Source: Marinifilum sp. (GTDB lineage Bacteria > Bacteroidota > Bacteroidia > Bacteroidales > CG2-30-32-10). From it: a stretch of 38,884 nt of DNA. Of the stretch, positions 23,282 through 28,979 are shown in pieces. The notes beneath the pieces are model-generated. The model searched no databases. It saw nothing but the letters and a program-made list of their open reading frames with translations, and was not told the origin of the DNA. Where the stretch lies: positions 1 to 38,884 of the forward strand of contig DYDE01000022.1 of assembly GCA_020718065.1 (NCBI GenBank), in the 5' to 3' direction. The first letter of the stretch is position 1, and the number at the start of each line of letters is the position of its first letter. The position numbers and the translations under genes were made by a program.

Positions 23282-23388
23282 AATAAAATAAGATTTAATT
23301 AATAATTCTTTTAATTTCTTTTGCAAATATACAATTTTTTAATATTAAAAAAATTTAAAGTTTTTATTTTTAATATCAAAAATATATT

Positions 23389-23396
23389 TAATTTTG
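23389..23396 (+). promoter_or_regulatory. Bacteroidetes-type -7 element TAATTTTG upstream of lipoprotein copy 1
   Basis: TAnnTTTG match 39 nt before the ATG. Context TAATTTTGCACC is shared with copy 2. Confidence 0.6.
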
Positions 23397-23434
23397 CACC
23401 GAGGTTAACCAATTTAAAAATTAAAAAAAAACCC

Positions 23435-23731
23435 ATGAAAAAATTATTTGCATTATTAGTTGTTGCAGGAATGGTATCATTCGTTGCATGCGGTCCAAAA
23501 GGTCCTTCTAAAGAAGAATTAGAAAAGAAAAGACAAGATTCTATCAGAACTGCTGATTCTATTGCTAAAGTAGAAGCTGACGCTAAAGCTGCTCAAGAAC
23601 TTGCTGCAAAAGAAGCTGAAGCTAAAAGAATAGCTGATTCTATCGCAGACGCAGAAAAAAACAAAAAACCTATCAAAAAACCTACTAAACCAGTAGTAAA
23701 ACCTAACACCAAAGTTCCTGGAAAAGGTTGA
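23435..23731 (+). CDS. Small Lys/Ala/Glu-rich lipoprotein, copy 1
   Basis: MKKLFALLVVAGMVSFVACGPKG lipobox. First 78 codons identical to 23869-24102. Confidence 0.85.
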   Translation: MKKLFALLVVAGMVSFVACGPKGPSKEELEKKRQDSIRTADSIAKVEADAKAAQELAAKEAEAKRIADSIADAEKNKKPIKKPTKPVVKPNTKVPGKG

Positions 23732-23868: not shown

Positions 23869-24159
23869 ATGAAAAAATTATTTGCATTATTAGTTGTTGC
23901 AGGAATGGTATCATTCGTTGCATGCGGTCCAAAAGGTCCTTCTAAAGAAGAATTAGAAAAGAAAAGACAAGATTCTATCAGAACTGCTGATTCTATTGCT
24001 AAAGTAGAAGCTGACGCTAAAGCTGCTCAAGAACTTGCTGCAAAAGAAGCTGAAGCTAAAAGAATAGCTGATTCTATCGCAGACGCAGAAAAAAACAAAA
24101 AAGGCAACAAAAAAGTTGACAAAATTAAAGTTGGTGATAAAGTTAAAGGAAAAGGTTGA
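23869..24159 (+). CDS. Small Lys/Ala/Glu-rich lipoprotein, copy 2
   Basis: Same N-terminal 78 aa as copy 1, different Lys-rich tail. Confidence 0.85.
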   Translation: MKKLFALLVVAGMVSFVACGPKGPSKEELEKKRQDSIRTADSIAKVEADAKAAQELAAKEAEAKRIADSIADAEKNKKGNKKVDKIKVGDKVKGKG

Positions 24160-25698: not shown

Positions 25699-26319
25699 TT
25701 AAAATTGAACTTTTGGTGCTTCATCTGCGCCAGGTTTTGCTTGGAAATATGGTTTTTTCTTAAACCCAAACAAACTTGCAAATATGTTTTTAGGGAACTT
25801 ACGGATATATGTATTGTATTTTTGTGCGTAATCGTTAAAAGAATTACGTTCAATCAATATTAGGTTTTCTGTTTCTTTCAATTGGTTTTGTAGATCCATA
25901 AAGTTTTGATTGGCTTTTAAATCAGGATATTGTTCAGCAACAACCATTAATTTGGATAAAGCACCACTTAAACCATCTTGCATTTGTTGAAACTTTTGTA
26001 TATCAGCTTCAGAAAGATTCTCGGCATCAAGTTTTACATTAGATACTTTAGAACGGGCTTCAGTAACTTCAACCAATGTTTTGTTTTCGTGTGTTGCATA
26101 ACCTTTAACAGTATTTACCAGATTTAAAATAAGGTCTGCGCGTCTTTGATATGCACTTTCAACTTTTGCCCATTGTGCATTTGTAGCTTCTTCTCTTGAT
26201 ACCATACCGTTATATGCAAAATAACCAAAAAGGCCAAAAATTAAGAAAACTACTAGAATTAAACCTATTATCATGGCTGCACCCAAACAACCGGTGCCTG
26301 TTTTTTCACTTGGTGTCAT
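25699..26319 (-). CDS. lemA: LemA family protein
   Basis: One TM, then YNGMVSREEATNAQWAKVESAYQRRADLILNLVNTVKGYATHE...RNSFNDYAQKYNTYIRKFP. Confidence 0.95.
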   Translation of the reverse strand: MTPSEKTGTGCLGAAMIIGLILVVFLIFGLFGYFAYNGMVSREEATNAQWAKVESAYQRRADLILNLVNTVKGYATHENKTLVEVTEARSKVSNVKLDAENLSEADIQKFQQMQDGLSGALSKLMVVAEQYPDLKANQNFMDLQNQLKETENLILIERNSFNDYAQKYNTYIRKFPKNIFASLFGFKKKPYFQAKPGADEAPKVQF

Positions 26320-26605: not shown

Positions 26606-27634
26606 ATGCTTAAAACTTATTCTTTTCCAAGTGTTGTTGAATTAAACAACTTTGAATTAAAAAAAGTGTCTGGCAACTTGCTTAAAGGTTTGAAGTTAAA
26701 AAATAATGAAATCTCCTATATTATAGGAGAATTGGCAATGTCAGAAGGTTCTTCACCCCATAAAAGTGTTAATAGTGCACCTTCCGATTTAGATTATCAG
26801 CTGCTTTTGCAAGCAAGTTTATTATTAGCTTATAATCAATTACAAACTCCTTTTTATGTTACTGCTGGTTTTCCTTTTATTACATATCAGTTATATAGAA
26901 ATGAAGCTATAAATGCAATTCAAAAAAATCATAATATTCAGTTTGATGCATCAACTTGTTCTAACTTCGGAGTTAGTCAGGTTACTGTTAATGTAGTTAA
27001 AGCTATGATTCTTTCAGAAATTCAGGGTTGCGATATTGCAATTCGTAAAAGTGAAACCGAAGAAAAATCAAATATTTTTATTGTTAGCCTTGGTTATGGT
27101 ACTTTTGAAGCAGCTTTAAGTACTGAAAATGGGATTATTCAAAGAACATTTGTCAGTTCTCAGGGTATTCGTTATGCTGTTAATATGTTAGCGCGTGAAC
27201 TTTTACAATCTTATTATGTAGGTTTGATTACAGAACATCAATTTGATATGGGTTTCAAAACAGGCTCTTTGGTTTTAAATAGAAAAAGGATTGATATTAC
27301 AGAATTTCGTAAAAGTGCTCTTATGAATTATTACAGAGAGGTAATTAGCCCTATGTTAAGAAAATCATTTACAGACAATGATTTTAATATTTGTAATAAA
27401 TTATATTTAGTTGGTGGTGGTGCTTTGTTTCCTGAATTAATTGATTGTTTTAAAGAAGAATTTATAGATTTGTTAGAAATAATTGTATATCCAGATCCTG
27501 CAACTTGTGCAAGTAAGGGATACTGCATAAATTCTAAAGAAGCTACTGATGATAAAAATGTAGCTTCTGTTGGTATTGATATAGGTAATTCAAGTACTAC
27601 AATTTGCTTTTATGACGGTAATGAATCGTTTTAA
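26606..27634 (+). CDS. ParM/StbA-like actin-fold ATPase, apparently circularly permuted (phosphate-1 motif at C-terminus)
   Basis: N-terminus SFPSVVEL...ISYIIGELAMSEG; FIVSLGYGTFEAAL (phosphate-2 position); LYLVGGGALFPEL (adenosine motif); DPATCASKGYC; C-terminal VASVGIDIGNSSTTICFYDG (phosphate-1). Confidence 0.75.
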   Translation: MLKTYSFPSVVELNNFELKKVSGNLLKGLKLKNNEISYIIGELAMSEGSSPHKSVNSAPSDLDYQLLLQASLLLAYNQLQTPFYVTAGFPFITYQLYRNEAINAIQKNHNIQFDASTCSNFGVSQVTVNVVKAMILSEIQGCDIAIRKSETEEKSNIFIVSLGYGTFEAALSTENGIIQRTFVSSQGIRYAVNMLARELLQSYYVGLITEHQFDMGFKTGSLVLNRKRIDITEFRKSALMNYYREVISPMLRKSFTDNDFNICNKLYLVGGGALFPELIDCFKEEFIDLLEIIVYPDPATCASKGYCINSKEATDDKNVASVGIDIGNSSTTICFYDGNESF

Positions 27635-27650
27635 TTTACAAAAAAACAAC

Positions 27651-27684
27651 AAACCCACTTTTAGATAAACAAAAAGTGGGTTTG
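27651..27684. terminator. Bidirectional terminator hairpin between convergent genes
   Basis: AAACCCACTTTTagataaacAAAAAGTGGGTTT. Confidence 0.85.
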
Positions 27685-27689
27685 ATTAT

Positions 27690-28979
27690 TTAAATAACTT
27701 TTACAAGATAGTAGTTTTTCTTGCCTTTTTGAATGAGGATATAGCGATTGTTAATCAAATCATTACTTGAAAATTCAAATGATTCATTAATTTTTGTTTT
27801 GTTTACCTGAATACTTCCTTCTTTTAGCATTCGGCGTGCTTCATTTTTGGAAGCCATTATTTGAGTTGTTTCTGAAAGAAAATCAACACAGTTTTGTTTG
27901 TTATTTAAGGTATCAGAAGGTATTTCTACTTGAGGAACTCCTTCAAAAACACTTAATAACATTTCTTCGTTCAAGTTTTTTAAAGAATCTGTAGTTCCTT
28001 TTCCAAATAAAATTTCTGAAGCTTCAACAGCAGCTTTATAATCATCTAAAGAATGAACCCTGATTGCTACTTCCATTGCCAAAGACTTTTGTAAAACACG
28101 TAAATGAGGGGCTTGTTGATGCTGGTTTATTATTGCATCTATTTCTTCTTTGGTATATAAAGTAAAAATCTTAATATATTTTGCTGCATCTTCATCACTG
28201 CAATTAAGCCAAAATTGATAGAATTTATAAGGGGAAGTGAGTTTAGGATCGAGCCAAACATTTCCTTCCTCTGTTTTGCCAAATTTTCCTCCATCAGCTT
28301 TGGTAATAAGTGGACAAGTAAGTGCAAACGCTTCTCCTCCTGTTTTACGGCGAATAAGTTCTGTTCCGGTAGTTATATTTCCCCATTGGTCTGATCCACC
28401 CATCTGTAATTTGCAATTTTTGTTTTCATAAAGCCACAAAAAATCATAACCTTGAACCAATTGATAAGTAAATTCAGTAAAGGAAATTCCATTTCCTCCT
28501 TCTAACCTTTTCTTTACCGAGTCTTTTGCCATCATATAGTTAACAGTAATATGCTTTCCAATATCCCGCATAAAATCAAGAAATGTAAAGTCTTTTGTCC
28601 AGTCATAATTATTTACCAATTCAGCAGCATTGTCTTTTGCTTCAAAATCAAGAAATTTGTATAATTGTTTTTTAATGCATTCCTGGTTATGTCGAAGTGT
28701 TTCTTCAGATAAAAACTTTCTTTCTTCAGATTTCCCTGAAGGATCTCCTATCATACCAGTTGCTCCACCAATTAAAGCAATAGGTTTATGACCTGCTAGT
28801 TGTAAATGTTTCAACATCATCACCGATACCAAATGTCCGATATGCAGTGAATCTGCCGTAGGATCGATACCAACATAAGCAGATGTCATTTCTTTTCCTA
28901 ATAAATCTTCGGTACCAGGCATTACATCGTGAATCATTCCACGCCATCTAAGTTCTTCAACAAAATTCATAGTTTTCAA
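27690..28979 (-). CDS. tyrS: Tyrosine--tRNA ligase
   Basis: [83 protein letters not shown]-terminal S4-like domain. Confidence 0.97.

Follow-up and report, generated by a model that had tools for sequence, protein, structure and literature searches.

The window analyzed here, a 38,884-nucleotide stretch of a Marinifilum sp. contig (DYDE01000022.1), carries on its forward strand, at 26606–27634, an open reading frame of 342 residues that runs from ATG to TAA and encodes an actin-like protein in circularly permuted order. Homologues match the protein end to end, and the reading frame, coordinates and peptides of the first-pass annotation were all exact on re-reading. The gene is flanked by a divergently oriented upstream gene for a LemA-like membrane protein (25699–26319, reverse strand), which is kept as a neighbor in a congener, and by a convergent downstream gene for tyrosyl-tRNA synthetase, tyrS (27690–28979, reverse strand), both named from the appearance of their sequences. 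Between the two convergent genes an inverted repeat (AAACCCACTTTT ... AAAAGTGGGTTT) was read by eye at 27650–27690 and is likely a terminator shared by the permuted actin gene and tyrS. The window also holds, at 23321–23731 and 23869–24159, two near-identical small lipoprotein-like genes in tandem (MKKLFALLVVAGMVSFVACGPKGPSKEELEKKRQDS...), which differ mainly at their C-terminal ends. The genome has a single copy of the permuted actin gene and a separate, full MreB on another contig (C66).

The chain begins with the element that forms strand 3 in canonical actins and ends with strand 1, the phosphate-1 loop and strand 2 (VGIDIGNSSTTICFY). To our knowledge, all other actin-like proteins place strand 1 and the phosphate-1 loop first. 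Residues 2–13 (26609–26644, forward strand, as are all features of the protein given below), the KTYSFPSVVE region, correspond to canonical strand 3 in an alignment with ALP_N (Pfam PF17989); strands are predicted at residues 2–8 and 10–13, and P8 and S9 are invariant. The alignment matches protein residues 3–128 to profile positions 17–137 of 148; at its N-terminus the protein therefore lacks profile positions 1–16, which hold strand 1, the phosphate-1 loop and strand 2. Only four open codons precede the ATG in frame, and no N-terminal phosphate-1 motif has therefore been overlooked. Further along, E138 (27017–27019) is a Glu present in 43 of 43 relatives, at what we take to be the position of the presumed catalytic Glu of ParM and MreB. 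The phosphate-2 loop, SLGYGTFE at residues 161–168 (27086–27109), has Ser for the canonical Asp in 40 of the 43 relatives in our 43-row alignment, and its G163, G165, T166 and E168 are invariant. The adenosine motif, GGG at residues 270–272 (27413–27421), is likewise invariant (43/43). The last helix (residues 298–313) is followed by a short, poorly conserved linker at residues 314–319 (27545–27562) and then by the relocated hairpin of strand 1, phosphate-1 loop and strand 2 (residues 320–336, ASVGIDIGNSSTTICFY; 27563–27613), an assignment based on the alignment, on AlphaFold2 modeling and on deletion of the tail from the model. The canonical phosphate-1 motif that the first-pass annotation had recognized at the C-terminus is borne out: DxGxxxT lies at residues 325–331, and G323, D325, G327, N328 and T331 are each invariant in the 43 aligned relatives, which at the sequence level indicates that the motif is not there by chance. 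The mean frequency of the top residue is 0.71 in the tail, 0.73 in the phosphate-2 loop and 0.72 in the adenosine motif, as against 0.43 in the linker and 0.33 in the last residues.

Relatives that match end to end include one in a congener, at 80% identity, and one in another family of the same order, at 46%. Matches were present in 14 of 295 genomes in an order-level sample and in 23 of 396 genomes in a phylum-level sample, the window's own counted. A scan of the genomes of 85,462 species with two strict patterns yielded 141 relatives; the best 80 of these 141 were retrieved and come from Roseivirga, Cyclobacterium, Lunatimonas, Odoribacter, Dysgonomonas, Parapedobacter, Mucilaginibacter, Salinibacter, Balneolales, Melioribacteraceae and uncultured Bacteroidales. 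Among the retrieved loci, which span several Bacteroidota classes, the phosphate-1 motif is C-terminal in all 95 distinct full-length members and upstream of strand 3 in none (0/95), so the homologues do keep the tail and carry no second motif at the N-terminus, two of the points on which the first-pass reading could have failed. The canonical order, with strands 1 and 2 at the N-terminus, is absent: 95/95 are permuted. The order and its conservation are thus direct observations, and, as far as the retrieved proteins represent it, the permuted order is conserved across the phylum Bacteroidota. A search of 198 Bacteroidota genomes for ALP_N relatives in canonical order, a possible ancestor, gave none above cut-off; every match belonged to the permuted family. 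One member (L050:6001–7299, UBA7662) has an additional Pro/Ala-rich C-terminal tail of ~85 residues that ends ..KFLISGTW, and this locus has no adjacent bactofilin.

A wrong start, an assembly error or a decayed gene might also be invoked to explain the order, and one copy, in genome G034 (L006, G034:C131:41395–42452), is indeed broken by in-frame stops. Against this, the 95 of 95 distinct full-length relatives from several classes share the order in open frames, the motif residues are invariant and few open codons lie upstream, which leaves such an explanation a negligible chance; the four upstream codons and the conserved order together rule out a start-site error or an assembly artefact. 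The congeners G540 and G633 of G034 carry intact copies.

The first-pass annotation had expected that the protein, rotated back to canonical order, would align end to end and gain score, and it does so with both canonical profiles and relative to shuffled tails. The native protein scored 69.7 bits against phrog_691, a full-length canonical profile labeled 'partition protein', with the match starting at position 27; with the tail moved to the front it scored 80.1 bits over positions 6 to 318 of 329, while four shuffled-tail controls gave 68.0–68.5 bits. For the relative L008 the score rose on rotation from 67.1 to 72.7 bits (shuffles, 66.8–66.9), and for L014 the gain was small, from 63.3 to 64.7 bits, with the start again extended to position 6. 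Against ALP_N, rotation of the window protein raised the score from 38.2 to 49.9 bits and moved the start from position 17 to position 1, and three other members went from 34.1, 39.7 and 33.1 to 42.6, 48.4 and 39.4 bits, also starting at position 1; shuffled-tail controls reached 41.5 bits for the window protein and, in a second case, 33.4 bits. A search of PDB sequences gave no gain for the rotated over the native profile (21.7 versus 21.5 bits), because the sole good match there falls short of the N-terminal region. The native profile does align with BiP in permuted order, profile positions 316–338, 129–179 and 251–306 matching BiP residues 23–45, 190–241 and 340–396, respectively, each piece being weak alone. 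NCBIfam gave nothing above its cut-offs for the permuted actin.

An AlphaFold2 model computed from the 43-row alignment had a mean pLDDT of 92.7 and a pTM of 0.91, and the model and Foldseek together predict a two-domain actin fold similar to those of ParM and Ta0583. Foldseek placed Ta0583, pCBH ParM and Dh-cParM1 at E values of about 1e-14 with TM scores of about 0.7, and CorM was also among the first matches. The C-terminal hairpin is modeled not as a disordered tail but as two confident strands, residues 320–326 and 330–336. In a model lacking the tail the strand at residues 2–8 is gone and the pLDDT drops from 94 to 56 for residues 1–10, from 92 to 49 for residues 11–20, from 95 to 62 for residues 21–30 and from 92 to 56 for residues 41–50, whereas domain II stays high and residues 131–190 and 231–310 keep values of at least 91. 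The alignment behind the tail-less model had 25 rows, compared with 43 for the full-length protein; since the loss of confidence is local, the smaller alignment is unlikely to be its sole cause. The loss of the strand at residues 2–8 is what would be expected if the tail supplies the neighboring strand. The earlier proposal that the hairpin occupies the β1–β2 slot is indirectly supported in that this strand is modeled only when the tail is present; the packing itself is deduced from predicted secondary structure and model confidence, and both the fold and the placement of the hairpin are predictions of the model.

In the structure that we propose, the chain starts at strand 3 of domain I and runs through the catalytic Glu, the phosphate-2 loop, the adenosine motif and the last helix; after the six-residue linker, strand 1, the phosphate-1 loop and strand 2 would return to the domain I slot that they normally fill. 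The moved hairpin would close the domain I sheet on the same chain and supply the phosphate-1 loop, so that the nucleotide site would be complete and the active site rebuilt, and both ends of the chain would fall in the turn that joins strands 2 and 3 rather than ahead of strand 1. Binding of ATP or GTP would be expected. A different arrangement is one in which the hairpin fills the slot of a neighboring subunit, so that the permutation would serve as a device for polymerization by strand exchange. The hairpin is terminal and sits on a variable linker, which is longer in some members (e.g. L053, L055, L087 and L046); however, the model of the monomer, hairpin included, has high confidence, and the linker of ~6 residues found here is well suited to a hairpin that closes on its own chain. 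We regard such a domain swap as improbable. Our preferred explanation, a natural circular permutation with a rebuilt actin fold in a chromosomal, ATPase-like family, has in our estimate a probability of about 0.88.

By sequence and fold the protein is of the ALP/ParM type. It shares core sequence and nucleotide motifs with these actins (PF17989, phrog_691), matches their profiles almost end to end once rotated and has a predicted fold resembling pCBH ParM and Dh-cParM1; yet it is not of canonical order, since the family starts after strand 2, carries strands 1 and 2 at the C-terminus, is encoded on Bacteroidota chromosomes and has Ser for the phosphate-2 Asp. The best structural match, Ta0583 of Thermoplasma acidophilum (2fsj; E 8.6e-15, TMq 0.69), to which a PF21522 match just under cut-off also points, differs in being archaeal, of canonical order and only about 16% identical. 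MreB (PF06723) has the actin fold in common, but the permuted actin gives only a weak C-terminal match to it, far below the MreB cut-offs. FcmB of filamentous cyanobacteria is a chromosomal, partition-derived actin that has a role in cell morphology beside MreB and together with a partner protein (PMC12645912); it belongs to another phylum, and the portion of that paper drawn on here neither reports FcmB as permuted nor states that its partner FcmC is a bactofilin.

The match to phrog_691, which among viral profiles scored best, and the membership in the ALP_N family would also fit a ParM captured from a plasmid or phage that still segregates DNA through a ParR-like adaptor. We searched 72,556 plasmids, 50,697 phages and the IMG/VR viral contigs for relatives and found none, and, unlike in ParMRC partition systems, the clustered neighbors include no recurrent small ParR-like partner, the sole recurrent small neighbor being a bactofilin. 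By its location the permuted actin is not a plasmid partition protein, and a captured protein that retains a partitioning role is quite unlikely. An origin of the family in mobile elements was rejected, there being no matches in plasmids, phages or viral contigs.

When neighboring genes were clustered, 48 of the examined loci contained a bactofilin-family gene, and Pfam PF04519 confirmed eight representatives as bactofilins. The bactofilin gene mostly lies directly downstream on the same strand, with a median gap of 6 bp and 41 of 56 within 60 bp, as in Roseivirga, where the permuted actin gene is followed by the bactofilin gene and then by tyrS. A Trp occurs among the last three residues in 52 of 56 distinct downstream bactofilins (loci L031–L110 and L007–L030), in varied contexts (VAW, PRTW, GWW, IEW, KLW, HFW). 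Other bactofilins of the carrier genomes lack it, in 0/6 encoded upstream and 0/27 elsewhere (0/33 in total), a difference with a Fisher p of 2.5e-20 when the sequences, despite their relatedness, are counted as independent. In Dysgonomonas, Parapedobacter and Massilibacteroides (L063, L072, L103, L107) two different bactofilins flank the permuted actin, and only the downstream one has the Trp end. On a tree of 50 members, half lack a bactofilin next to them on the downstream side, the window's lineage among them, and adjacency is patchy but clustered, requiring six changes. Accordingly, no bactofilin gene lies directly downstream in the window, and the single bactofilin of its genome, on another contig (C46), has no Trp end. 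In Melioribacteraceae (L073:4982–8651) an M23 peptidase gene is followed in turn by those for the permuted actin, a TPR protein and a bactofilin, and then by an ATP-synthase gene. This run resembles the known morphogenetic module of M23 peptidases and bactofilins (PMC10945521), and the portion of that paper considered here mentions no actin-like protein. In the titles and abstracts covered from an open-licence literature of 5.39 million papers we found no description of an actin–bactofilin operon, and in that literature none of a natural permuted actin.

In lineages that have a co-encoded bactofilin, we put the chance that the permuted actin works with it at about even. The simplest reading of the conserved ending is that, where co-encoded, the Trp-ended tail of the bactofilin may dock on the permuted actin. 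Bactofilins are thought to polymerize without nucleotide. More tentatively, the two proteins could form a composite cytoskeleton of two polymers that would serve cell shape or the organization of the envelope, in which an ATPase filament or switch would recruit or organize the bactofilin through its Trp tail and the relocated ends would change the free surfaces of the filament.

Assembly of the permuted actin into filaments like those of ParM and MreB is somewhat favored. Most of the structures closest to it form filaments (pCBH ParM, Dh-cParM1, CorM), and this argues against a nucleotide-binding protein that forms no filament and acts as an Hsp70- or FtsA-like switch or adaptor to regulate a partner, either bactofilin or one of the envelope. 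Ser at the phosphate-2 position in 40 of 43 relatives would suit such a switch, non-polymerizing members exist in the wider ASKHA fold and the polymer could come from the bactofilin, so that we hold a switch to be unlikely but worth weighing. With Ser at this position hydrolysis may be slow, weak or altered. The permuted actin is most likely a chromosomal, nucleotide-dependent cytoskeletal protein that would polymerize and would often be coupled to a bactofilin.

The family is of high interest because the permutation is phylum-wide and another cytoskeletal family is linked to it. If a whole phylum has fixed this order, the actin fold would be shown to accommodate, and may even make use of, termini at another surface, and the relocated termini may bear on how the protein folds, on the polarity of a filament and on its lateral contacts. 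The association with bactofilin and its Trp-ended tail, if true, would lead toward a regulator of a bactofilin polymer that is driven by nucleotide, in a phylum about whose cytoskeleton little is known.
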